Assembly: GCF_001027545.1 (NCBI RefSeq)
Contig: NZ_CP009498.1
Location: forward strand, 124,001-188,000
Length of the DNA: 64,000 bases
Direction of reading: 5' to 3'
Source: Endomicrobium proavitum
GTDB taxonomy: Bacteria; Elusimicrobiota; Endomicrobiia; Endomicrobiales; Endomicrobiaceae
Shown here: one piece after another, positions 7,145-36,077 of the stretch
Layout of the letters: the number at the start of each line of letters is the position of its first letter
Position numbering within the stretch: position 1 is the first letter of the stretch
The notes under the pieces: generated by a model
Seen by the model: only the letters and a program-made list of their open reading frames with translations
Told to the model about the DNA's origin: nothing
Database searches by the model: none
Made by a program: the position numbers and the translations under genes

Positions 7145-7216
7145 GCGGGTGTAGTTCAGCGGTAGAACGTCTCGTTGCCAACGAGAAGGTCGTGGGTTCA
7201 AGTCCCATCGCCCGCT
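7145..7216 (+). tRNA. tRNA-Gly (anticodon GCC)
   Basis: 72 bases. Acceptor GCGGGTG pairs with CGCCCGC, the anticodon stem TCTCG/CGAGA encloses TTGCCAA with GCC at 7177-7179, and the T-arm is GTGGGTTCAAGTCCCAT. CCA is not encoded, consistent with the nucleotidyltransferase gene at 28.4 kb. Confidence 0.96.
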
Positions 7217-7351: not shown

Positions 7352-7433
7352 GCTGGGGTGGCGGAACTGGCATACGCGCACGTTTGAGGGGCGTGTCCTT
7401 AACCGGATGCGGGTTCAAATCCCGCCCTCAGCA
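7352..7433 (+). tRNA. tRNA-Leu (anticodon GAG)
   Basis: 82 bases with a long variable arm typical of class II tRNA. Acceptor GCTGGGG pairs with CCTCAGC, anticodon GAG is at 7386-7388, and the T-arm is GCGGGTTCAAATCCCGC. No encoded CCA. Confidence 0.95.
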
Positions 7434-7587: not shown

Positions 7588-7657
<70 letters not shown>

Positions 7658-7769: not shown

Positions 7770-8276
7770 ATGAAAAAAATCATTACGCGGTTAAACGGTT
7801 TTATTTTTGCGTTGGCGTTAATTTGCGCATTATTAACTGTTGTTTGCAAACTTTCGTTTGCGGGCATAGCAGAGAAAGCGCAGGAAAGTAAGCTTCAGTC
7901 TGTAAAGATTGCGCAGTTGTCGTCGGGCAAGCCTCATATTAAACCATTTAACGCCGGACTTATGCATTTTGATACCCGCAAATATAACATATCGCCGCAA
8001 ACGCAGGCAGAGTTAAAAATTCTTGTTAAAGAAATAAATCAGTTTGAGTATGATGAAATTATAGTTGAAGGTCATACGGATTTTGAAGGAAGCGGTTCCG
8101 GTAATATTGAGCTTTCTAAAAACCGCGCAAAAGCCGTTTACGGTGAGCTTTTGAAACTTGGCGTTCCGCCGGCAAAAATAAAATATTACGGTTCGTCGTC
8201 ATATAAACCTAAAGCGGAAAATTATACAACTCAAGGAAAAGCCGCAAACCGCAGAGTTGAGATATTTGTAAAATAA
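7770..8276 (+). CDS. Exported OmpA-domain protein (peptidoglycan-binding)
   Basis: 168 residues. The N-terminus is a signal peptide or anchor (hydrophobic residues about 9-30, then an alanine-rich turn). The rest is one OmpA C-terminal-type domain (about 60-168): the core motif VEGHTDFEGS, the NRAKAV helix and the AANRRVEIFV terminus are clear. Such domains bind diaminopimelate peptidoglycan in the periplasm. It closely resembles the OmpA domain fused to the end of the 1866-residue autotransporter two genes downstream, so the two probably share an origin. RBS GAGGG lies 7 bases before the ATG. Its exact role (linking the wall to the outer membrane, or supporting the adhesin) is inferred. Confidence 0.85.
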   Translation: MKKIITRLNGFIFALALICALLTVVCKLSFAGIAEKAQESKLQSVKIAQLSSGKPHIKPFNAGLMHFDTRKYNISPQTQAELKILVKEINQFEYDEIIVEGHTDFEGSGSGNIELSKNRAKAVYGELLKLGVPPAKIKYYGSSSYKPKAENYTTQGKAANRRVEIFVK

Positions 8277-8311: not shown

Positions 8312-9670
8312 ATGCCAGAACAAGAAAAAAACACGTCGCAAAATATAAATCAGGAAAAAACGGCGCAAGACGCGCCCAAACATATGGGCGTAGCAGGGCA
8401 AAACGTATTTTTTGCGCCGCCGCAAATAGTTACGGCGTCAGCCGTACCGCAAGGGGCGGACGCGCCAAATGTTGCGCTGAAAGATCCGTTTTTTGCGCCG
8501 CCGCCGGCAGTTCCAACGCAAGAAGGACCGCTTGGAATAAAGTTTGACTTTAACGACGGCTGCCGAGTACTTTTACCCAAAGGGCAGTGGCACGTGCAAA
8601 TAGAAGACGCCGAATCGGGCAATATAATTTTCATATGCGATGTTGACGAAGGGTGGGTTGTAAGCACAAAAAAATATTATATTCCGTTTGTAATAAAAGT
8701 ATGGAAACGAGGCGAGCCCAACCCTGTGTTTATGCACGAATTAAATTTAACGGGCAAAGAAGTTGTATTAAAGTTTCCGGTGGGCACAGTGGGCGATACG
8801 GTCGGCTGGCTGCCATACGCGGAAAAGTTTTACTTAAAACACAAATGCGCAACAGAACTTACAATGGGCAAAGATATGGTAGATATATTTGCGGCGCAGT
8901 ATCCCAACATACAGTTTAGCGCAATGCCCGGAAAAGTCCGTTACGAAAAACCGTATGCCACATATAAAATGGGATTGTTTTTCAGAGGGGATAAAAATAA
9001 CCAGCCGATAGATTTCAGACAAGTGGGTTTGCACAGAACGGCAGGATATATATTGGGAGTAGATCCAACGGAAGAGCCGCCGAAAGTGAATTTGAGTTAC
9101 GAAAGAAAAATAAAAGAGCCGTATGTTGTAATAGCCACAAAAGCGTCAAGCTTGCCGAAAATGTGGAACAACGGGCACGGGTGGGACATAGTCTGCAAGT
9201 ATTTGAAGTTTTTAGGATACAGGGTTTTAGCAATAGACAGGGAGTATATTTTCGGACAGAACTTCACATATCAGCAAGTTCCAAGGGACGCGGAAGATTT
9301 TACGGGCAACAAGCCGCTTGCGGAAAGAATAGAGTTATTGCAGCACGCGGATTTTTTTGTTGGATTGTCGTCGGGTTTAAGCTGGCTGGCGTGGGCAAGC
9401 AAAATTCCGGTAGTAATGATAAGCGGTTTTACGCTGCCGATATGCGAGTGGAATAACCCGTACAGAGTATTTAACAGCCACGGCTGCAACGGTTGCTGGG
9501 ACGACGTGAATGAGAATTTTGATCACAAAGATTTTTTCTGGTGCCCCAAACACAAAGGAACAGACAGACAATTTGAGTGCACGCGCTTAATAACAGGAAA
9601 ACAAGTAGTAGGGCATATAGACAGATTGATGAAAGATAAAAACATAGCAGCGCCAAAAGACAGAAAGTAA
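8312..9670 (+). CDS. Autotransporter O-heptosyltransferase (BAHT/TibC-type)
   Basis: 452 residues, cytoplasmic, no signal peptide. The first ~65 residues are a Pro/Ala/Gln-rich linker with a repeated FFAPP motif. An N-terminal beta domain (about 72-145) follows, then a GT-B glycosyltransferase part with GLFFRGDK, PYVVIATKASSLPKMWN and FFVGLSSGLSWLAWA. Four cysteines C392, C395, C411 and C423 follow the pattern C-x2-C-x15-C-x11-C, resembling the Fe(III)-binding cysteines of TibC. Enzymes of this group transfer heptose from ADP-heptose to serines on AIDA-type passenger repeats. The gene sits directly upstream of an AIDA-repeat autotransporter, the expected substrate. Sugar donor identity is inference. 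RBS CGGAGAG precedes the ATG. Confidence 0.86.
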   Translation: MPEQEKNTSQNINQEKTAQDAPKHMGVAGQNVFFAPPQIVTASAVPQGADAPNVALKDPFFAPPPAVPTQEGPLGIKFDFNDGCRVLLPKGQWHVQIEDAESGNIIFICDVDEGWVVSTKKYYIPFVIKVWKRGEPNPVFMHELNLTGKEVVLKFPVGTVGDTVGWLPYAEKFYLKHKCATELTMGKDMVDIFAAQYPNIQFSAMPGKVRYEKPYATYKMGLFFRGDKNNQPIDFRQVGLHRTAGYILGVDPTEEPPKVNLSYERKIKEPYVVIATKASSLPKMWNNGHGWDIVCKYLKFLGYRVLAIDREYIFGQNFTYQQVPRDAEDFTGNKPLAERIELLQHADFFVGLSSGLSWLAWASKIPVVMISGFTLPICEWNNPYRVFNSHGCNGCWDDVNENFDHKDFFWCPKHKGTDRQFECTRLITGKQVVGHIDRLMKDKNIAAPKDRK

Positions 9671-10023: not shown

Positions 10024-13000
10024 ATGAGTATAAAAAAAGAGAAATTATTTGGGACTAAACAGCCTCAAGAATTTTCGCCTTTAGAAAACTATCCGGTATC
10101 ATCGTCCGCCTATTTGGCGTCCGACGAATATGTATCTTCGTCGTTTAGCTCGGCGTGCAGAGGACCGGTTATTACCAGATTTTTTAACGGCGGCAAAAAG
10201 ATTGTGCAAACCGTAGCTCTTACGGCAATGCTCGCCCAAAATTTTGCCCCTTACGCCCACGGCGCTTTCACTTCAAATGTAAATAGCGGCGATGTTGTAT
10301 CAGGAGAAGCAGTATTAAGCGGTACCCAAAACGTTTATAACGGCGGAGTAACGGTTGATATTTTAATTAAAAATTACGGCAATCAGTATGTTTACTCCGG
10401 TGGAATCGCTTCTAACACATATGTGGGCAGCACCGGAACTCAATACGTTTCCGGCGGCACGACGCTTAACATAATAGCATTGAACTATGCTCTGTTATAT
10501 TTACAGTCCGGCGGATACGCTTCGGGCGTAAGTTTTAAGAATGGCGGCGCTATGTATATCTCGTCGGCAAGCGCTGACAACACTTCTTTTGTAAGCGGCG
10601 TGCAGTATGTTTCTTCCGGAGGTGTAGCAAGCAACAACACGTTTGACGTTTACGGTTCTCAAGGCGTTGACGGCGGCAGCGCATATAATAATAGTTTTTA
10701 TAACTCTTATATCAATCAAAGCGTATATTCCGGTATTGCTTCGGGAAATTATTTTTTCTATTCAAGAGAGAACGGCGGACAAGGGCAAACTGTGCAATAC
10801 GCTTCTGTGCTCAATAATTCTTTTTACGGGCAATACGCTTCGCAGTCTATCTATTCCAGCGGTTATGCTTCAGGCAACTATTATACAAATTTTGGATATC
10901 AACAAGTTTCCAACTATGCAAGCGCGTTAGATACTTATTTCGGCGCTTCTGCAACCCAAACTCTTTACTCTTCCGCATACGCTTCTAAAACTGTTTTCAA
11001 CGCGGGAGGGTATCAAAATGTGTCCGCATATGCTTCGGCGGTTGACAATGTTTTGCAAGGCGGTATGTATTCAAGCGCTTACTATCAAAGTTATGTAAGC
11101 GCGTATCAAAGCGTATATTCCGGCGGGCAAGTTTACAGCACGGTTCTTAATGCCGGCGCGTATAGTTATCTTGCAAGCTTTGCGTTTGCGCAGTCAACTA
11201 CAATAAACGCAAGCGCAAGCCAGTATGTGGCAAGTTATGCGTCTTCTTTCGATACAATTATTAGCGGACAAAGCGCCGGCCAAACTTTGGCAAACTATGC
11301 TGTGGCGTCTAATACTTTAATTAATGATTTAGCCTTGCAAGTTGTCAGTTCCGCCGCAAGCGCCTATTCAACTACAATAAACAGCGGAGGAATGCTTGCT
11401 GTCTTGTCTGGCGCAAGAGCTTATAATGTAAACCAATCCTCAGGAGGTTTAATAAGCACAATAGTTGACAGATACGGATATGGCACTTATATTTCAGGAA
11501 GTAACGCTTCCGGAGTTTTTTGGCTTTCGGGAAGTTCGACGTATAATTTTGATCTTTACGGAGGCGTATATACTTCGGTATCCTCCGGTTCCGTATATTC
11601 ATATATAAAACAAGGGCAGCTTACCGTATTATCCGGCGGTACGGCTAACAGCACTACAGTTAATAATTTTGGAGGGTTGTATGTTTACTCGTCAGGGTCG
11701 GCTATAAATACCGTGCAAAATTCCGGCGGGAATATTTATGTAAGCGTTCAGGCAGGACTGGCGGATTATGTTTCCGGAGTGAATGCTTCCGGACAAGCTT
11801 TCTGGCTTTCAGGCGGCACGGCAAGCAACTTTATACTTTATTCCGGCGGAAGTCAGTATGTGGGGCGTTACGGTTCTACCGTAAACGCAACGATAAACAG
11901 CGGCGGACTTTTATATGTGGCTCCTGACGGTTCGGCAATAGGCGTAACGCAATCTTCCGGCGGGGATTTAATTTTTACATTGAGCAACAATAATTCAAAT
12001 TATATTTCAGGAACAAATCAAGACGGCGCAACAATGTATTTGTCGGGAAGTTCGGCGTCAGGTTTTATATTTAACTCCGGCGGCTTTGCAGCCGTGAACA
12101 CGGGCGGAACGATTACCGATACAACAGTAAATTCCGGCGGCAGGCTTGATGTTTCCGGCGGCACTTCTCTTGTTACGGCATCTAATATAATTCAAAGTTC
12201 CGGCGGTAATATTAATGTAAACATTGTGTCTAACAACGGATATAATTCTCTGTTTGTTTCCGGCTCAAATGACAACGGAACGTTTTACGCTTCCGACGGT
12301 TATGCGTCCGGTTTTGTATTGTATAGCGGCGGCTTTTTAGGAGTTTCTTCCGGCGGTATTATGGAGAACACAATACTTAGCGGCGGCTCTATTGCTCTTT
12401 CCGGCGGTTCGCTTTTAAATGTAAGCCAGTTAGCCGGCAATATCAGCGTTTATTTCTCAAGCGGCGACAGTTCAACTTATATTTCCGGAGTAAATCAGTA
12501 TGGCAATTTATTGTATTACTCCGGCGGCACGGGCAGCGGTTTTACGTTTAACTCGGGTATTTGGATGTACGCATCGGGTAGCGGAGTTTCTCTTTATGAC
12601 GTTACCGTTAACTCTTCGGCATATTTCAGCGCCTATTCGGGCGCGTCGGTTGTAGGCATTAAAGTTAACTCCGGCGGAAATTTTATGGTTTCTGAAGTTG
12701 TCGGTTATGACAGCTCTACATATGTTTCCGGCGAAAATCAGTTTGGCAGCAAACTGTATTATGCAAGCGGAGTAGGCAGCGGGTTTGTGCTTAGCGCAGG
12801 TAACAGTTTATATGTTTCTTCCGGCGGGAAAATTTATGATACTTTAATTGAAGGCAAATATGACAGCGATTACGGATATATTTCATCAGCATATGTTTCA
12901 ATGTATAGCGGCAGCGCAATAAATACGGTAATTAACGCCTATGCCTCAATGGGATTTTACAGCGCATATTTATCTAATACAATAGTTAATTCCGGCGGAG

Positions 13001-15624
13001 TAATTTCCGGCGGAACCGCTAATTTGTATAACACAAAAATTAACGGCGGATACGTTTCAGTGGGTTCCGCAAATATGAAAAACACCGAAGTTAACGGCGG
13101 ATGGTTTTATGTTAGCAGCGGAAATTATTACGATACTGTTCTTAACGGAAGTTCTTTGTTAAGCTATTATTCCGCAAATGTAATAGACTTGCAGGTAAAT
13201 TCCGGAGCGCTTGTCATAGGCGGGTCGGGAAATGTTGTAAACGCTCAGATAAATTCCGGCGGTTCTGTTGAGGCTAGCGCCGGAACCTACACCGGAACTA
13301 AAATTGCATACGGCGGATACCAATATTTAAACTATGCAATTGTTGATTTTTCGGGAACGGTTAACGGAATTCAGCTTTTAAATTCTGCCACAATAGGAAT
13401 AAGTACAACGGTTAACTCCGGCGGTTCTCAAATTTTAAATTACTCCGCCAGCGCAATAGACGTTACTCTTAACGGCGGATATCAGTATGTAGGCGGTGGG
13501 GCTACAGCGGCAAATGCTACAGTCAATTCCGGCGGCGTGCAATATGTAGAAGTAGAAGGCACAGCAATGCGTACAACCGTAAATGCCGGAGGAGTTCAAT
13601 CGGTTAATATATTTGCGACTGCGGAAGATACCACTGTTAACGCAGGCGGACGCATGCAAATTAAAAAAGGCAGTTTTATAACTGAAAAAACTAAAATTAA
13701 CGCCGGCGGAACTCTTGACGGATATTCTTTTGACATAGAAGACGTAACTCTTAACGGCGGAAAATGGATTAACGCCGGACAAGCTACCGTTAGAGATTTA
13801 ACCATAAACGGCGGCGTGTTGGATATGCGTAAACAATCTTTCGCGCCGGAATTTACAAATTTCAAAGTTGCCAATTTGTCTGCAAATAACGGCATAATAG
13901 ACATGAGCGTTACTCTCAATTCCGACGGGTCTCCGGCGGATTTGCTTATTATTGACGATTCGTTTGCCGGCAAGGCTTTGATAAGAGTCCATAATACCGG
14001 CGGCGCAGGCGACGAAACTTTTGCCGACGGAATACAGCTTGTTGACGGCGGAGCAATATTAGCCGGCGACGGAACTTTCGGGCTTGTCGGCGGAAAATAC
14101 GATGTCGGCGGATGGGAATATAAACTTTACAGAGGCGGGCTTGACGGAATTTCTAACCCTAACGCTTGGTTCCTTCGTTCCGGAGTTATGCCAAATTACA
14201 CGGATATGTTTAGAACGATTGCCAACGTGCCTATTATAAACGTTGTGCTTGCAAAAACAGGAATGAACTCGCTTGAAAAACGTTTGGGAGATTTGCGCGC
14301 GGCAAATAACGGCGACAATACTCAAGGCGTATGGGTAAGAACGTACGGCAAACAAGCGCAGGTTAACGATTTAATAAAAACAGATTTAACGCTCTTTGGC
14401 GCGGAAGCGGGCTATGATTATCTTATATCTTCCGACGGGTTTAACAAATTATATTTAGGAGTTATGGCAGGCTACATGCTTGCCGACAGTATTAAAACAA
14501 AACAGGCAACCGGCTCTTACAGCAAGGGAAACGGAGAATCTCCAAGCGCCGGAGCTTATTTGTCTTACGTAGCCGGCAACGGCTGGTTTGTTGACGCAAC
14601 GGCAAGAAATTTCTGGACAAAGCTGGATATGACAAATATCGCTTCAGACGGCACGGAGCTTATGTTTAAACCGGAAAGAAATATTTTTGCCGCAAGCGTT
14701 GAAGTAGGCAAAACGTTTACTTCCAAACTGTCCGACAATTCTTACTTAAGAATAGAGCCTAAAGCCGAACTTCAGTATTATAAAGCAAACGGCAATCAAA
14801 CAGACGTTTCAAACGGCGTAGGCAGCATAGTTTACGACGATGCGGATTACTTCAACGGAAAACTTGCGCTACTTTTAGGGCTTACAAAAATTAAAACAAA
14901 CGGACTTATTTTTGAACCGTATGTTGAAGTTGCTTATAACAACGAATTTGCCGGCAAGGGCGATATCAGTTACGGCGGCGCGGACTATAAGTCTGACTTG
15001 TCCGGCGGAAACTTTGAAGGTTCTTTGGGTTTAAACGTAAATCTTGCAAAAGGAACTTACATTTACGCGCAAGCAACTTATGAAAACGGACAAAAGGTAG
15101 ATGCTATAGGCGCAAATTTGGGCATACGTTACGGCTTCGGCTCAACTGCTGCGGCAGAAAAACAACAGCCGGCAAAAAAAATTCAGACTGATGTTAATAA
15201 TGTTAACGCGGCAGCCGTTGGCGTAGAAGAATCCGGAACCGAAAAAATAACGGCTGTTCAAAAAACCGTAAACTCTCAAGGCAAAACCTATTCAAGAGAT
15301 TTCTATTTTGCCACTATAAACTTTGATCACGGCAAGTCCGACATCAATCATAAATCTGCGGACATTGTCAGATCTGCCGCTGAGAAAATAAGACAGTTGC
15401 AGTATAATTACGTTGTAATTGAAGGTCATACCGATTCAACCGGCGATTTTAAACATAAGCAGGAACTTTCAAGAACGCGCGCAAAAGCCGTTCGCGATAT
15501 GTTAATAGGCGCGGGAATTCCGGTAGGTAAAATAGTAACTATCGGCTACGGCGACAGCCAGTTGAAAAACGTTGATTCTCAAGGCGAAGCGCAAAACAGA
15601 AAAGTTGATATTACAATAAGATAG
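10024..15624 (+). CDS. Giant AIDA-repeat autotransporter with C-terminal OmpA domain
   Basis: 1866 residues; start ATG behind AAGGAG. An extended signal region (hydrophobic stretch about 60-82, ending near YAHG) leads into a passenger of about 1200 residues made of strand-loop-strand repeats with recurring NSGG, SSGG and VNSGG turns, as in AIDA-I, TibA and Ag43-type adhesins. An autotransporter barrel follows (about 1430-1705, from GVWVRTYGK to LGIRYGFG). Unlike usual autotransporters, the barrel is not the end: about 50 linker residues and an OmpA-type peptidoglycan-binding domain (about 1755-1866, with VIEGHTDSTGD and AQNRKVDITIR) follow. The upstream heptosyltransferase probably glycosylates the passenger. 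Likely role: surface adhesin anchored to the wall from the periplasmic side. Terminator follows. Confidence 0.9.
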   Translation: MSIKKEKLFGTKQPQEFSPLENYPVSSSAYLASDEYVSSSFSSACRGPVITRFFNGGKKIVQTVALTAMLAQNFAPYAHGAFTSNVNSGDVVSGEAVLSGTQNVYNGGVTVDILIKNYGNQYVYSGGIASNTYVGSTGTQYVSGGTTLNIIALNYALLYLQSGGYASGVSFKNGGAMYISSASADNTSFVSGVQYVSSGGVASNNTFDVYGSQGVDGGSAYNNSFYNSYINQSVYSGIASGNYFFYSRENGGQGQTVQYASVLNNSFYGQYASQSIYSSGYASGNYYTNFGYQQVSNYASALDTYFGASATQTLYSSAYASKTVFNAGGYQNVSAYASAVDNVLQGGMYSSAYYQSYVSAYQSVYSGGQVYSTVLNAGAYSYLASFAFAQSTTINASASQYVASYASSFDTIISGQSAGQTLANYAVASNTLINDLALQVVSSAASAYSTTINSGGMLAVLSGARAYNVNQSSGGLISTIVDRYGYGTYISGSNASGVFWLSGSSTYNFDLYGGVYTSVSSGSVYSYIKQGQLTVLSGGTANSTTVNNFGGLYVYSSGSAINTVQNSGGNIYVSVQAGLADYVSGVNASGQAFWLSGGTASNFILYSGGSQYVGRYGSTVNATINSGGLLYVAPDGSAIGVTQSSGGDLIFTLSNNNSNYISGTNQDGATMYLSGSSASGFIFNSGGFAAVNTGGTITDTTVNSGGRLDVSGGTSLVTASNIIQSSGGNINVNIVSNNGYNSLFVSGSNDNGTFYASDGYASGFVLYSGGFLGVSSGGIMENTILSGGSIALSGGSLLNVSQLAGNISVYFSSGDSSTYISGVNQYGNLLYYSGGTGSGFTFNSGIWMYASGSGVSLYDVTVNSSAYFSAYSGASVVGIKVNSGGNFMVSEVVGYDSSTYVSGENQFGSKLYYASGVGSGFVLSAGNSLYVSSGGKIYDTLIEGKYDSDYGYISSAYVSMYSGSAINTVINAYASMGFYSAYLSNTIVNSGGVISGGTANLYNTKINGGYVSVGSANMKNTEVNGGWFYVSSGNYYDTVLNGSSLLSYYSANVIDLQVNSGALVIGGSGNVVNAQINSGGSVEASAGTYTGTKIAYGGYQYLNYAIVDFSGTVNGIQLLNSATIGISTTVNSGGSQILNYSASAIDVTLNGGYQYVGGGATAANATVNSGGVQYVEVEGTAMRTTVNAGGVQSVNIFATAEDTTVNAGGRMQIKKGSFITEKTKINAGGTLDGYSFDIEDVTLNGGKWINAGQATVRDLTINGGVLDMRKQSFAPEFTNFKVANLSANNGIIDMSVTLNSDGSPADLLIIDDSFAGKALIRVHNTGGAGDETFADGIQLVDGGAILAGDGTFGLVGGKYDVGGWEYKLYRGGLDGISNPNAWFLRSGVMPNYTDMFRTIANVPIINVVLAKTGMNSLEKRLGDLRAANNGDNTQGVWVRTYGKQAQVNDLIKTDLTLFGAEAGYDYLISSDGFNKLYLGVMAGYMLADSIKTKQATGSYSKGNGESPSAGAYLSYVAGNGWFVDATARNFWTKLDMTNIASDGTELMFKPERNIFAASVEVGKTFTSKLSDNSYLRIEPKAELQYYKANGNQTDVSNGVGSIVYDDADYFNGKLALLLGLTKIKTNGLIFEPYVEVAYNNEFAGKGDISYGGADYKSDLSGGNFEGSLGLNVNLAKGTYIYAQATYENGQKVDAIGANLGIRYGFGSTAAAEKQQPAKKIQTDVNNVNAAAVGVEESGTEKITAVQKTVNSQGKTYSRDFYFATINFDHGKSDINHKSADIVRSAAEKIRQLQYNYVVIEGHTDSTGDFKHKQELSRTRAKAVRDMLIGAGIPVGKIVTIGYGDSQLKNVDSQGEAQNRKVDITIR

Positions 15625-30105: not shown

Positions 30106-30165
<60 letters not shown>

Positions 30166-30307: not shown

Positions 30308-32647
30308 ATGAAAACAATTTTACGAGCAGTCATTGCATTTTTTGTATGCGTCCGTCATACCGTGCTTGGCACGGTATCCATGTTAAATAAAAAACGGATT
30401 CCGATTTTCAACGGAAGCAGGAAAGCCGTTACTTTCTCCTTACTCCTTGCTACTTTTTCCTTGTTTTTGGCAGCGCCAAAAGCCTACGCCCAAACGTCTG
30501 TAAACAACTTTGACAATTTTATAGCCATAACAACCGTAACAAACAATTACAACATATCTTTAACCGGCAATATCTTATTTTCCACCGGCGGCTTTAGCGT
30601 ATTAACCGGCACAATTACCGGAAACGGATATGCGTTAGACGGGCAAAATGCAAACGCCGGAATTACTCTTTCTTCCGGAAACAGTTTATTTTTTTATGGA
30701 CCCATAACATTTCAAAATTTTAAAAAAGTAATAAGTAGTAGTGGAAGCGCAGCGCAGGGAGGAGCATTATTTGCAGCAGGGGCATATAATACCTATTCAA
30801 ACAGCACAACCATGTTAGATTTTACAAATGCAACAGTAAACTTTACAGGCAATACGGTAACAACTGTAAGCGATTATATCTATGGAAGCGCAGCGCAAGG
30901 CGGAGGACTATTTGTAGGCGGAGCGGTCTCTGCAGGGGCATATGGTGGAATAGCCAATTCCAGTAGCGGCACAGCAGTAGTAAACTTTACATCATCAATA
31001 ATAAATTTTACAAGCAATACGTTAATGAGTGGAGCTATCGGAAGCGTAGCGCAAGGCGGAGGGCTATTTGTAGGAGGAGCAGTCTCTGCCGGAGCATTTA
31101 CCGGTGGAACCAATAACTCCAGCAGCGGCACAGCGGTAGTAAACTTTACATCGTCAACAATAAATTTTACAAGCAATATGTCAACTTACACGATTGGAAC
31201 GGTGAGAACAGTAGGGCAAGGCGGAGGATTATTTGTGGGCGGAGCGGTCTCTGCCGGAACAAGGGATACCGGAGTAAACAATTCCGGTAGCGGCATAGCG
31301 GTAGTAAATTTTATATCATCAACAATAAATTTCACAAGCAATACAGTAACGGGTAAAAATGCAGCGCAAGGCGGAGGACTATTTGTAGGCGGAGCCTCTG
31401 CCAGTGGAGAAAATAACAATTCCAGCAGCGGCACAGCGATAGTAAATTTTATATTGTCAATAATAAACTTTACAAGCAATACAGTAAATGGGGCAAATGC
31501 AGTGCAAGGAGGAGGCTTATTTGTGGGAGGCGCGGTGTCTGCCGGCGCGGCATATCAGTATAATATTGGTGTAAACAATGCCAGCAGCGGCACAGCGGCA
31601 GTAAACTTTACATCATCAATAATAAACTTTACAGACAATATAATGAGTGGTCAATCCGCCTCGCAAGGAGGAGGGCTATTTGTAGGCGGAGCCTCTGACA
31701 GTGGAGGACATGACAATTCCGGCAGCAGCGGCGGCACAGCAGTAGTAAACTTTACATCTTCAACAATAAACTTTACAGGCAATACAGCATATGCTAGAAG
31801 TGCGCAAGGAGGAGGATTATTTGTAGGCGGAGCAGTCTCTGCCGGAGTATGGTACGATGATGCAAATTCCAACAGCGGCACAGCGGTAGTAAACTTTACA
31901 TCATCAACAATAAACTTTACAGGCAATACGGTAAAGGGTGCAACTATGGGAAGCGCCGCGCAAGGCGGAGGGCTATTTGTAGGAGGAGCGGTCTCTGCCG
32001 GAGCATATGGTGGAATAGTCAATTCCAGCGGCGGCACAGCAGTAGTAAACTTTACATCGTCAACAATAAACTTTACAAACAATAAAGTAACTTTCAATAT
32101 TGGAGAGGGGGGAACAGCAGGGCAAGGAGGAGGATTATTTGTAGGCGGAGCGGTCTCTGTCGCAGCATTTGCTAGCGGAATAAACAATTCCAGCAGCGGC
32201 ACAGCGGTAGTAAACTTTACATCATCAACAATAAACTTTACAGGCAATACAGTAGCGAGTGGATACAGAGCAACCGTAGTACAAGGAGGCGGACTATTTG
32301 TAGGCGGAGCGGTCTCTGCCGGAATATGGGCGGCAAACTCAAACACCAGCAGCGGCACAGCGATAGTAAACTTTACATCGTCAATAATAAACTTTACAGG
32401 TAATGCGATAAATATGGGATACACTGGAAGCGCCGCGCAAGGCGGAGGGCTATTTGTAGGTGGAGCGGTATCTGCCGGAGTAGGTAGGACTGTAATAAAC
32501 AATTCCAGTAGCGGCACAGCGGTAGTAAATTTTACATCATCAATAATAGACTTTACAGGTAATATGGTACAGGGTGGACGCACTGGAAGCGCCTCGCAAG
32601 GAGGAGGGCTATTTGTAGGGGGGGGCAGTTTCTGCCGCAATATCTGA
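30308..32647 (+). CDS. Pmp-like repeat autotransporter, 5' part (passenger), ends at a G8 frameshift
   Basis: 779 residues in the present frame. A long signal region (62 residues, ending AAPKAYAQ) includes a stretch encoded by a palindromic repeat. The passenger consists of repeats of about 45-60 residues with the core QGGGLFVGGAVSAG, then a variable loop, then GTAVVNFTSS-INFT-NTV. The paired G-G-G-L/I and F-x-x-N motifs resemble chlamydial polymorphic membrane proteins. The frame fails at a run of eight Gs (32618-32625), after which 7 unrelated residues and TGA follow. With seven Gs the frame continues into the next entry, giving one protein of about 1922 residues (30308-36077). As read, this product lacks the barrel and could not be displayed as an autotransporter. 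RBS AGAGG before the ATG. Confidence 0.85.
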   Translation: MKTILRAVIAFFVCVRHTVLGTVSMLNKKRIPIFNGSRKAVTFSLLLATFSLFLAAPKAYAQTSVNNFDNFIAITTVTNNYNISLTGNILFSTGGFSVLTGTITGNGYALDGQNANAGITLSSGNSLFFYGPITFQNFKKVISSSGSAAQGGALFAAGAYNTYSNSTTMLDFTNATVNFTGNTVTTVSDYIYGSAAQGGGLFVGGAVSAGAYGGIANSSSGTAVVNFTSSIINFTSNTLMSGAIGSVAQGGGLFVGGAVSAGAFTGGTNNSSSGTAVVNFTSSTINFTSNMSTYTIGTVRTVGQGGGLFVGGAVSAGTRDTGVNNSGSGIAVVNFISSTINFTSNTVTGKNAAQGGGLFVGGASASGENNNSSSGTAIVNFILSIINFTSNTVNGANAVQGGGLFVGGAVSAGAAYQYNIGVNNASSGTAAVNFTSSIINFTDNIMSGQSASQGGGLFVGGASDSGGHDNSGSSGGTAVVNFTSSTINFTGNTAYARSAQGGGLFVGGAVSAGVWYDDANSNSGTAVVNFTSSTINFTGNTVKGATMGSAAQGGGLFVGGAVSAGAYGGIVNSSGGTAVVNFTSSTINFTNNKVTFNIGEGGTAGQGGGLFVGGAVSVAAFASGINNSSSGTAVVNFTSSTINFTGNTVASGYRATVVQGGGLFVGGAVSAGIWAANSNTSSGTAIVNFTSSIINFTGNAINMGYTGSAAQGGGLFVGGAVSAGVGRTVINNSSSGTAVVNFTSSIIDFTGNMVQGGRTGSASQGGGLFVGGGSFCRNI
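30357..30377 (+). repeat. Palindrome inside the Pmp-like signal-peptide coding region
   Basis: ATACCGTGC-TTG-GCACGGTAT, a perfect 9-base stem, followed by CCATG as in the other palindromic elements (GGATCCATG at 1195-1203). It is translated in frame within the residues VRHTVLGTVSM. Confidence 0.75.
32618..32625 (+). repeat. G8 homopolymer: frame switch of the Pmp-like gene
   Basis: Every other repeat copy has GTAGGCGGAGC here. This copy has GTA followed by eight Gs and CAG. Deleting one G restores V-G-G-A-V-S-A and an open frame to 36077. Either a slippage-prone phase switch or a sequencing error. Confidence 0.9.
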
Positions 32648-32738: not shown

Positions 32739-35700
32739 ATGAATGGAACCGCAGCACAAGGCGGCGGGCTATTTGTAGGTGGAGCGGTATCTGCCGGAGC
32801 ATATGAAGAATATACCGATGATACAGCAAACAATTCCAGCAGCGGCACAGCGGCAGTAAACATTACGTCATCAGCAATAAACTATATAGGCAATACGGTA
32901 ACGAGCGGAGGCACTGGAAGCGCATCGCAAGGCGGAGGACTATTTGTAGGCGGAGCGGTCTCTGCCGGAGTAGCTGGTTCCGGAGCAATCAATTCCAGCA
33001 GCAGCGGCACAGCGGTAGTAAATTTTATATCATCAACAATAAATTTCACAAGCAATACGGTAACGAGCGGAGGCAATGGAAGCGCCTCGCAAGGAGGAGG
33101 GCTATTTGTAGGCGGAGCAATATCTGTCGGAGCATATGATTCCGGAGCAAACAATTCCAGCAGTGACACAGCGATAGCAAACTTTATATCATCAACAATA
33201 AATTTTACAAGCAATACGGTAACGAGCGAATATATAGGAAACGCCGCGCAAGGCGGAGGGTTATTTGTAGGCGGAGCGGTTTCCGCCGGATTATATAGTA
33301 ACGGAGCAACCAATTCCAGCAGCAGCGGCACGACCGTAGTAAACTTTATGTTGTCAGCAATAAACTATATAGGCAATACGGTAACAAGTAGAAACGGGGG
33401 AACCGCCGCGCAAGGAGGAGGGCTATTTGTAGGCGGAGCGGTATCTGCCGGAATACGTAATGGTGGGGACAATATTTCCCGCAACGGAACAGCAGTGGTA
33501 AACTTTACATCATCAACAATAAATTTTACAAGCAATGTGTTAGCAAGAGGAATTAACGGAACAGCCGCGCAAGGCGGAGGATTGTTTGTAGGCGGAGCGG
33601 TATCTGCCGGAGCATATAATGTTGGAATTAATGATTCCGACAGCGGCACAGCAATAGTAACTTTCACAAATTCAAAAGTTAATATAAATAATAACACAGC
33701 GGAAGAAGGCGGAGGAATATTTGCAGGCGGTTCAGTGTCTGCAGGGTCATCAGGAATAGGGACCAATGCTATAAATCTCGCCTTTTTCGGCGTTGCGGAA
33801 ATAAATTTTAAAGGTTCAACGGTAACAATAAACGGCAACACAGCAACAACCGGCGCAGGAATATATGTAGCCGGAAATTATATGGACTTCTTCAGCGGCA
33901 ACATGGCTGCGGGAGGACAAGCAAAAATAATATTTGAAGATTCGCAAGTGGCGCTTAATTATAACACAGCAAGTTCAACCGGCGCAGCAGTATATGCCGA
34001 CGACGCAATAGTAACCCTCAAGAACACAGTAATGACATTTATGAATAATAAATCGTTAATAGGCGCAAGCATATATGCAAGCAATAATTCAAGCATAACA
34101 TTGTCCGGAAAAGGAAACTTCACAGGAAACCAAGCAACAACAGCGGGAGGGGCAATCTACGTAACCGGAGGCAGCACAGTAACAGTGGAAGCCGCAAGCG
34201 GCAATATATTATTTACAGGCAACAAAGCAGGCAGCGCGCCAAACGATATATATCTTGATAACAATAGCTTGTTGAATTTAATAACGGCAGGAACAAACAC
34301 AATAAGTTTAGTCGGCGGAATACAAAGCGCAATCAGCGCAACAAATATAGCGGTTAACAAAACAGGAGCCGGCGATTTATACATAGGCGGCAACAACCAA
34401 ATTAACGGCGACTTCACAGCAACAGCAGGAAAAGTAGCGCTGTTAGAAAACGCAACGCTTGAGGCAAACAACCTGATATTTAGAGGCGCAAAATTTGACA
34501 TGACCGACAGCAACACGCATGTAAACGTAGCAACAGCAACAACGTTGTTTGAAAGCGATACAAACTTATTGATGGATATATTTGCAAACGGAGAAAACGA
34601 CCAAATATATGCAAGCTCGGCGCAAGTAGGAGGGAATTTGCATATAAAAGCGCGTTTTGGCTTTTACAATAACAGAGAATATAAACTAATAATGTCCGGC
34701 AACAACGTAGTATTTGGAACGTTTACAACAACAACGTTTGATTACGTAGGAACAAGCAGCTTTTCGTATGAAATAAAATATAACGATATAACAGACTGGA
34801 CAGGAATAGTAAGAATAATAGTAAGCGGAACAAGCGCCGCAAATTTCCAAGAGCTGCCGAATTTAACATATAACCAAAAAGAAACAGCAAGAACGTGGGA
34901 CGCGTTGTCGCTGGCGCCGGAAATAGGAAATGATTTGATGAATGTAATGTCGGAAACAGCGGGCTTGGCAGAGAAAGAGCAGAAAGAAGTTCTGTCGGCA
35001 GTATCAGGATATTTTGTAAGCAACGTAATAAGAAGCGCAGCGTTAGACAGCGAGAATATTGAGCTGTATGAGAGAATAAAGAAAGAGAATGGAGTAGAAG
35101 AAACAACCACAGCAATGTGGGTGCAGGCAATAGGGGCAAGCGCAAAGTTTGGAAAAGATATAAACAGCATAGGTGAATATAAAGACAGCGGATACGGAGT
35201 AGCGGCAGGTTTTGACGTGTATTTTGGACCAACAAGCGGATTAAATAAAACAACGTTGGGAGCATATGTAAAGTATAAAGGCAACAGTATAAAAGAAGAA
35301 GCAAATAAAGCAACGCTAAATAAAATAGGCGGAGGAATATACGGCGGCTACGCGTCGGAGAAGTATGAAATAAAAGCGACGATAAACGCAAGCAAAGACA
35401 GCTATGAAACAACAAGAAATATAGAGCTAAGCAAATATTTCCCCGGGTATGAAGATAGAGAAGCAAAAGGAAGTTACGCAGGAATGACAATAGGCGGCGA
35501 CGTGGAAGGAGCGCTAAAAATAAAAATAGCAAACAATACAATCTTCAAACCATATATAGGAGCAGAAGTAAAAAACGCAAGTTATGAAAGCTTTAAAGAA
35601 ACAGGAGCAAACGGACTAAACTTAAATGTGGAAGCAGGAAATTATTTCAGAAGCGCAGGACGAGTAGGAGCGGGAGTAAACTACGAGAATGAGAAATGGG

Positions 35701-36077
35701 CAGGATATGTAAACTTGGAAGGAAAATATTTGCTTGCAGGAAACAAATACGAAATAGAAAGCGCATTTGAAGGAACAGAAATAAAATTCCAAAGCCGAGG
35801 ATATGAAGAGAGCGGCGTGATATTGGGAGTAGCAATAGGAGGAAGCGTAAAAGTAGCGGAAGGGTTGAAAATAATAGCAGGAGCAAACGCATACACAGCG
35901 GATAATTACACAACCATTAACGGCAACGCCGGATTAAGATATAACTTTGGCGCAGCAACAAACAAGATAACAAGCAAAGAAGAAGCCCAGGCAACCCCTG
36001 AACCGACAGCCGCCGCCGAAACGCAATTATACGAGATGAACGATTTGCCTGACGAGTTACAAAATGCTTTAAGATGA
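32739..36077 (+). CDS. Pmp-like repeat autotransporter, 3' part (passenger end and beta-barrel)
   Basis: 1112 residues from the first ATG after the frameshift; the frame is open back to the G8 tract. Six more QGGGLFVGG repeats are followed by shorter Pmp-like units (GGAIYVTGG, FTGNKA), a parallel-helix end region (about nt 34300-34850), and an autotransporter barrel from TTTAMWVQAIGASAKFG (nt about 35100) to GLRYNFGA (nt about 35940). After the barrel an extra ~45-residue tail rich in Glu, Thr and Ala ends at ALR. No signal peptide or convincing ribosome site precedes ATG 32739, so this half is probably expressed only when the frame is joined to the 5' part. Codons here favour A in third position, unlike neighbours. 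Confidence 0.83.
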   Translation: MNGTAAQGGGLFVGGAVSAGAYEEYTDDTANNSSSGTAAVNITSSAINYIGNTVTSGGTGSASQGGGLFVGGAVSAGVAGSGAINSSSSGTAVVNFISSTINFTSNTVTSGGNGSASQGGGLFVGGAISVGAYDSGANNSSSDTAIANFISSTINFTSNTVTSEYIGNAAQGGGLFVGGAVSAGLYSNGATNSSSSGTTVVNFMLSAINYIGNTVTSRNGGTAAQGGGLFVGGAVSAGIRNGGDNISRNGTAVVNFTSSTINFTSNVLARGINGTAAQGGGLFVGGAVSAGAYNVGINDSDSGTAIVTFTNSKVNINNNTAEEGGGIFAGGSVSAGSSGIGTNAINLAFFGVAEINFKGSTVTINGNTATTGAGIYVAGNYMDFFSGNMAAGGQAKIIFEDSQVALNYNTASSTGAAVYADDAIVTLKNTVMTFMNNKSLIGASIYASNNSSITLSGKGNFTGNQATTAGGAIYVTGGSTVTVEAASGNILFTGNKAGSAPNDIYLDNNSLLNLITAGTNTISLVGGIQSAISATNIAVNKTGAGDLYIGGNNQINGDFTATAGKVALLENATLEANNLIFRGAKFDMTDSNTHVNVATATTLFESDTNLLMDIFANGENDQIYASSAQVGGNLHIKARFGFYNNREYKLIMSGNNVVFGTFTTTTFDYVGTSSFSYEIKYNDITDWTGIVRIIVSGTSAANFQELPNLTYNQKETARTWDALSLAPEIGNDLMNVMSETAGLAEKEQKEVLSAVSGYFVSNVIRSAALDSENIELYERIKKENGVEETTTAMWVQAIGASAKFGKDINSIGEYKDSGYGVAAGFDVYFGPTSGLNKTTLGAYVKYKGNSIKEEANKATLNKIGGGIYGGYASEKYEIKATINASKDSYETTRNIELSKYFPGYEDREAKGSYAGMTIGGDVEGALKIKIANNTIFKPYIGAEVKNASYESFKETGANGLNLNVEAGNYFRSAGRVGAGVNYENEKWAGYVNLEGKYLLAGNKYEIESAFEGTEIKFQSRGYEESGVILGVAIGGSVKVAEGLKIIAGANAYTADNYTTINGNAGLRYNFGAATNKITSKEEAQATPEPTAAAETQLYEMNDLPDELQNALR

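Follow-up and report, generated by a model that had tools for sequence, protein, structure and literature searches.

The open reading frame at positions 10024 to 15624 of the window (the whole stretch of 64,000 nucleotides analyzed) encodes a protein of 1,866 amino acids that is probably a heptosylated, AIDA-type adhesin of type Va with a mechanical, load-bearing cell wall anchor in cis. Its autotransporter barrel is followed, on the same chain, by a linker and an OmpA-type domain predicted to bind peptidoglycan. Judged by profile matches, this fusion is widespread in the host's family, within the sampled phylum.

Gene and domain order

The features of the locus, in window positions, are as follows.

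7588 to 7656, + strand: (AGAC)17 tetranucleotide tract, candidate for phase variation, 5' of the cassette
7770 to 8276, + strand: small protein of 168 aa with an OmpA domain; its signal peptide has no clear lipobox; located 36 bases 5' of the heptosyltransferase gene
8312 to 9670, + strand: autotransporter strand-loop-strand O-heptosyltransferase (Aah/TibC family), 452 aa (TIGR04414; PF21129)
10024 to 15624, + strand: AIDA-type autotransporter with C-terminal OmpA domain, 1,866 aa (open reading frame and profile matches)
10024 to 10266, + strand: long N-terminal signal region, aa 1 to 81, with hydrophobic core IVQTVALTAMLA and putative cleavage site (sequence)
10267 to 13785, + strand: passenger with AIDA/strand-loop-strand repeats, target of Aah/TibC heptosyltransferases (PF16168, eight matches; TIGR04415, eight matches)
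13786 to 14127, + strand: autochaperone domain AC_1, aa 1255 to 1368 (Pfam)
14227 to 15138, + strand: pore helix and complete 12-strand beta barrel, approximately aa 1402 to 1705 (profiles, model, Foldseek, phmmer)
15139 to 15321, + strand: flexible periplasmic linker, aa 1706 to 1766, ∼60 residues (mostly low model confidence)
15322 to 15621, + strand: predicted OmpA-type peptidoglycan-binding domain, aa 1767 to 1866 (Pfam, model, structure and sequence matches)
15433 to 15435 and 15478 to 15480, + strand: codons of D1804 and R1819, equivalent to D271 and R286 of A. baumannii OmpA

The frame starts with ATG, has a good ribosome-binding site (AGGAG) just 5' of the start codon, and is not interrupted by any stop. 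In the signal region, a long N-region precedes the hydrophobic core at residues 60 to 71. The passenger contains eight AIDA repeats (Pfam PF16168, E 2.5e-37), and its eight NCBIfam TIGR04415 matches belong to the class modified by Aah/TibC enzymes. AC_1 scores 62.5 bits against a Pfam cut-off of 27.1, and the NCBIfam autotransporter barrel profile TIGR01414 aligns at residues 1277 to 1705 over positions 5 to 432 of 432 (E 2e-57), a stretch also matched by Pfam PF03797. The sequence-only reading had placed the end of the barrel, after passenger repeats, near residue 1705, and the profile match ends at exactly that residue. The linker and complete OmpA C-terminal domain that it had described up to residue 1866 are likewise borne out, by a Pfam match (PF00691) to residues 1767 to 1859 covering profile positions 2 to 96 of 98 at 64.4 bits against a cut-off of 27.2, and by the presence of D1804 and R1819.

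The protein has the traits of an AIDA-class type Va autotransporter, i.e., a 12-strand barrel with a pore helix and, N-terminal to the barrel, a beta-helix passenger with an autochaperone. The barrel is not at the extreme C terminus, as type Va would have it: 161 residues follow the last strand, and the protein is therefore a variant of type Va rather than a standard member.

Barrel and predicted structure

Classical type Va autotransporters end with the last barrel strand, which is recognized by BAM. In a phmmer alignment, BrkA is matched over residues 4 to 284 of 284, i.e., to its last residue, and the alignment ends at residue 1705 of the autotransporter; the extension thus begins where a classical autotransporter stops. 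Residues 1385 to 1866 were modeled with AlphaFold2 from an alignment of only 5 rows, and in the best model (mean pLDDT 72, pTM 0.61; the other four of five runs were poor) a helix and 12 strands are followed by a disordered, low-confidence linker and then by an OmpA-type fold. The sequence-only reading had named structure prediction of residues 1400 to 1866 as the check on its barrel; the model and its top Foldseek match, the BrkA barrel (target TM 0.88), return a 12-strand autotransporter barrel. Further Foldseek matches were EspP, EstA, Hbp, AIDA-I (4mee), and NalP, with the peptidoglycan-binding domain of OprF lower down. As modeled, the barrel is a closed 12-strand barrel of type Va. The genome encodes one Omp85 protein of BamA type. 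Since a type Va barrel is followed here by a folded periplasmic domain, BAM would have to read the last strand internally, as in OmpA.

Terminal domain and predicted peptidoglycan binding

The closest solved domain by sequence is the C-terminal domain of OprF (5u1h; E 5e-15). D1804 and R1819 are 15 residues apart, the same spacing as for D271 and R286 of A. baumannii OmpA, which bind diaminopimelate (PMC6572160). An Asp/Arg pair at this spacing is found in 24 of the 25 fused tails checked and also in two of the separate OmpA-domain proteins discussed here. By sequence, the terminal domain is complete and keeps both predicted peptidoglycan-binding residues, and a degenerate OmpA domain was considered and rejected. 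The genome encodes the diaminopimelate epimerase DapF, which makes a wall containing meso-diaminopimelate plausible. These residues, with the precedent, suggest that the tail binds peptidoglycan, and the topology of autotransporters indicates that the linker and OmpA domain would lie in the periplasm.

Distribution of the fusion

The genome, a single contig of 1.59 Mb, contains 23 autotransporter barrels and 22 OmpA domains, and an OmpA domain follows in the same frame after 13 of the 23 barrels. At least 22 more fusions, one of them scoring below the OmpA cut-off, occur in seven of ten related genomes, in which barrel and OmpA matches were joined by contig and frame. Loci from other relatives, searched with a widened barrel profile, add nine fused proteins. 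Overall, 17 genomes together encode at least 44 fused proteins, at least 31 of them in relatives, and the fusion is present in at least 10 of the 14 genera sampled from the host's family; these counts, drawn from the matches listed, are lower bounds. Relatives have between 0 and 10 or more fused copies each, and the nearest relatives outside the genus (L029 and L030) have no OmpA domain after the barrel. Outside the family, within the sampled phylum, autotransporter barrels are nearly absent. When the barrel and OmpA domain were searched by tblastn against 72,556 plasmids, 411 records matched, none covering 80% of the query, and at this sensitivity the architecture was thus not seen on plasmids. 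A chance origin of the architecture was rejected, as at least 44 proteins share this build.

A literature search, with subscription papers outside its reach, found no type Va autotransporter with an OmpA tail, only in-trans or other cases, and no paper linking Elusimicrobi* with autotransporters that describes an OmpA-tailed build. A term search within the 2022 review of autotransporter classes (PMC9289746) returned no mention of such a tail, and in a 2016 survey the AT-1 family appears for Proteobacteria alone (PMC4827864). The sequence-only reading had named an already widespread architecture as a ground for refuting it; within the family the architecture is indeed widespread and no lone oddity, though no sign of it was found in what was searched elsewhere or in the literature found. 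Published precedents concern type Vc, with SLH tails and with TpgA, and type Ve; none was found for an OmpA domain after a type Va barrel.

Comparison with known systems

AIDA-I, Ag43, and TibA (type Va, with Aah/TibC) have the same AIDA and heptosylation repeats, AC_1, 12-strand barrel, and adjoining TIGR04414 enzyme, but they end at the last barrel strand, to which the present protein adds a linker and OmpA domain. In AtaA and TpgA of Acinetobacter sp. Tol 5 (type Vc), an adhesin barrel is coupled to an OmpA-type protein encoded beside it. That system is trimeric with its anchor on a separate polypeptide, whereas here the barrel is monomeric and the arrangement is mostly one chain; two giant autotransporters of the host use a separate chain, like TpgA. 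The NCBIfam TpgA model matches the OmpA part only, at 35.1 bits, far below its cut-off of 350; given this score and the type Va barrel, membership of the TpgA family was rejected, and the tail would work like TpgA without being a member.

Trimeric autotransporters of Veillonella carry an SLH domain after the YadA anchor and thus also place a peptidoglycan-binding domain past the barrel in the periplasm (PMC5491611). They differ in their type Vc barrel and in an SLH domain of the OmpM kind, and they are reported to be restricted to Negativicutes (PMC5491611). Intimin and invasin (type Ve) combine a periplasmic, probably peptidoglycan-binding domain, a barrel, and a surface domain in one chain (PMC3297439), but in inverted order, the periplasmic domain being N-terminal (PMC3297439). 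OmpA and OprF have a barrel followed by the same C-terminal domain, that of OprF being the best solved relative, but their barrel is an 8-strand barrel of another family, without a passenger.

Swappable tails

On an unrooted tree of 54 barrels, in which direction is not set, the OmpA tail requires eight changes, at least five of them forced by well-supported branches, and by this evidence from sequence the tail is a swappable module. Near-identical barrels carry different tails within the genome (347399 versus 377192 and 220825 versus 7540). Other tails are Lys/Ala rich, Arg/Thr/Tyr rich (L030), or contain a short repeated DELxNALR motif, and plain barrel ends are found in L029 and many others.

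In L030 (10900 to 11524), the place that OmpA takes in others is occupied by a tail of ∼200 residues enriched in Arg, Thr, Tyr, and Ser; being basic, it too could bind the wall. A short acidic motif like DDLSDELRNALR ends four autotransporters, in L010 (476493), L015 (1224038), the window (35886 to 36074), and L019 (638351), with four tandem copies in one of them; it is possibly a docking or processing signal. One autotransporter of the window is apparently split into two frames (30308 to 32647 and 32739 to 36077) inside an array of 159-base tandem repeats, and an apparently identical copy of its barrel is located at 638351 to 639121 of the genome.

Split and fused forms

Two giant autotransporters, with frames of 7,051 and 8,163 codons, lack an OmpA tail and end instead in a small domain, VYVVTYNDKNFYF... 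A secreted OmpA-domain protein of 271 aa starts ∼14 bases after the stop codon of each. The small domain, which has no Pfam family and forms the C-terminal 65 aa in L012, is common to the giant tails and the downstream OmpA partners (L012, 8230 to 9278; L017, 3936 to 4990). In a relative (L057), a single chain contains the barrel, then two copies of the VYVVTYNDKNFYF domain, and then OmpA; the 271-aa partner is identical to the L057 tail at 72 of 248 positions (E 6e-31), and the small tail domain also aligns (E 1e-6). Furthermore, the barrel of one giant is almost the same as that of a fused sister (the pair at 347399 and 377192). That the partner is fused to a barrel in L057 argues for a joint function of OmpA unit and barrel, whether in cis or in trans, and on sequence comparison L057 would bridge the in-cis form and one that acts in trans like AtaA/TpgA.

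Heptosyltransferase cassette

The enzyme encoded at 8312 to 9670 scores 554 bits against the NCBIfam TIGR04414 cut-off of 200 and should, from its family and position, glycosylate the passenger. A second, almost identical heptosyltransferase in the genome adjoins a second AIDA autotransporter (L024), in which the first ∼80 residues are identical while passenger and tail differ. ADP-heptose may be supplied through an RfaE/HldE kinase domain (397 bits; cut-off, 345), and in the rumen relative L030 a heptosyltransferase gene is directly 5' of the AIDA autotransporter. The adjoining heptosyltransferases, the HldE/RfaE match, and the same gene order in L030 make it very probable that the passenger is heptosylated. 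The 168-aa OmpA-domain protein encoded upstream is a possible periplasmic helper.

In the second AIDA autotransporter, an ADP-ribosyltransferase-like domain lies between barrel and OmpA (L024, 3220 to 4560, minus strand, aa 1623 to 1741). This domain is PF18760, ART-PolyVal (44.8 bits; cut-off, 31.2); its usual His-Gly-Thr motif seems to be absent, and it may therefore be inactive.

Genes for tRNA-Gly and tRNA-Leu (window 7145 to 7216 and 7352 to 7433) immediately precede the AGAC tract and the cassette. Further AGAC tracts, with n from ∼9 to 57, are found in the window (30115 to 30154, besides 7588 to 7656), elsewhere in the genome (367691 to 367918, 477905 to 477940, 643011 to 643074, and 861048 to 861147), and in L077 (519 to 562), L078 (542 to 657), and L079 (544 to 603). 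They lie either upstream of genes for autotransporters and other secreted or outer membrane proteins or within short leader frames that precede such genes, both heptosyltransferase-AIDA cassettes included, and look like a genome-wide phase variation system for surface proteins.

Alternative explanations

The main rival to anchoring is that the OmpA tail serves chiefly in assembly, holding the precursor near BAM or the wall for display of the passenger, with anchoring secondary. TpgA provides the precedent: it binds AtaA as well as peptidoglycan, and without it adhesion and display are reduced (PMC5861075), including the amount of AtaA at the surface (PMC8151025). The largest autotransporters, too, have OmpA modules. 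Nevertheless, sisters of similar size end without OmpA, e.g., that at 121614 (a frame of 3,429 codons, with 22 residues after the match), which argues that the tail is not needed in general to display a large passenger, and the peptidoglycan residues are kept, although a pure chaperone role does not require them. Assembly as the main role is therefore unlikely; it could coexist with anchoring, and the tail is possibly an assembly aid as well as an anchor. The fused OmpA domains could also be general tethers between outer membrane and peptidoglycan, doing the job of OmpA or Lpp with the passenger incidental. Thirteen fused autotransporters and several separate OmpA proteins in a 1.59-Mb genome would fit such a role, but small, separate OmpA/Pal-like proteins exist for it (911010, 1041596, and 31982) and the fused copy number varies from none to 10 or more among relatives, making this explanation quite improbable.

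More improbable still is that the tail is a passive relic of recombination, OmpA being one neutral end among C-terminal cassettes shuffled between paralogues. The exchange of tails between the near-identical barrels (347399 and 377192; 220825 and 7540) and the existence of Lys/Ala-rich, Arg/Thr/Tyr-rich, and DELxNALR tails would be expected of shuffling. A neutral end is hard to reconcile with the retention of the Asp/Arg pair and full fold in 24 of 25 tails, when many of the proteins are only ∼20 to 40% identical over barrel and tail, or with a pairing of barrel and OmpA that is kept in split and fused forms. An artifact of assembly or frame joining two genes has a negligible probability and was rejected: nothing speaks for it, the frame is open throughout, the genome is a single contig, and 44 or more proteins from 17 genomes have the same join.

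Proposed mechanism and implications

In OmpA itself, a periplasmic domain comes after the last strand, and a single chain spanning surface, outer membrane, and wall, as the sequence-only reading had proposed, is therefore the best reading of the closed barrel and complete OmpA domain, contact with the wall being predicted. We propose the following for the anchored adhesin. (i) A Sec signal would export the autotransporter. (ii) BAM would insert the barrel via its internal last strand. (iii) The passenger would be threaded out through the barrel and displayed. (iv) The linker and OmpA domain would remain in the periplasm. (v) The OmpA domain would bind meso-diaminopimelate of the peptidoglycan. 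(vi) A pull on the adhesin would then be borne by the sacculus and not by the fluid outer membrane alone. Load bearing, heptosylation, and adhesion are what we infer for this protein, and cleavage that frees passenger or tail may also occur. The anchor is not obligatory, since several autotransporters of the genome and family stop in the classical way or carry another tail.

How force on a long adhesin is met at the outer membrane is a stated open question in work on AtaA and TpgA, where TpgA roughly doubles the extraction force in simulation (PMC13082670). An anchor in cis bears on how single-chain adhesins could resist being pulled from the membrane. The anchor exists in natural versions (with, without, and split in two), so that removing or mutating one domain would allow clean comparisons. 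It is possible, although on balance we would not assume it, that type Va anchoring in the host's family is modular and exchangeable, operating in cis (OmpA tail), in trans (OmpA partner carrying the small domain of the tail, perhaps with like-with-like docking), or through other periplasmic tails. If so, the choice of tail would set the load that each adhesin can bear.
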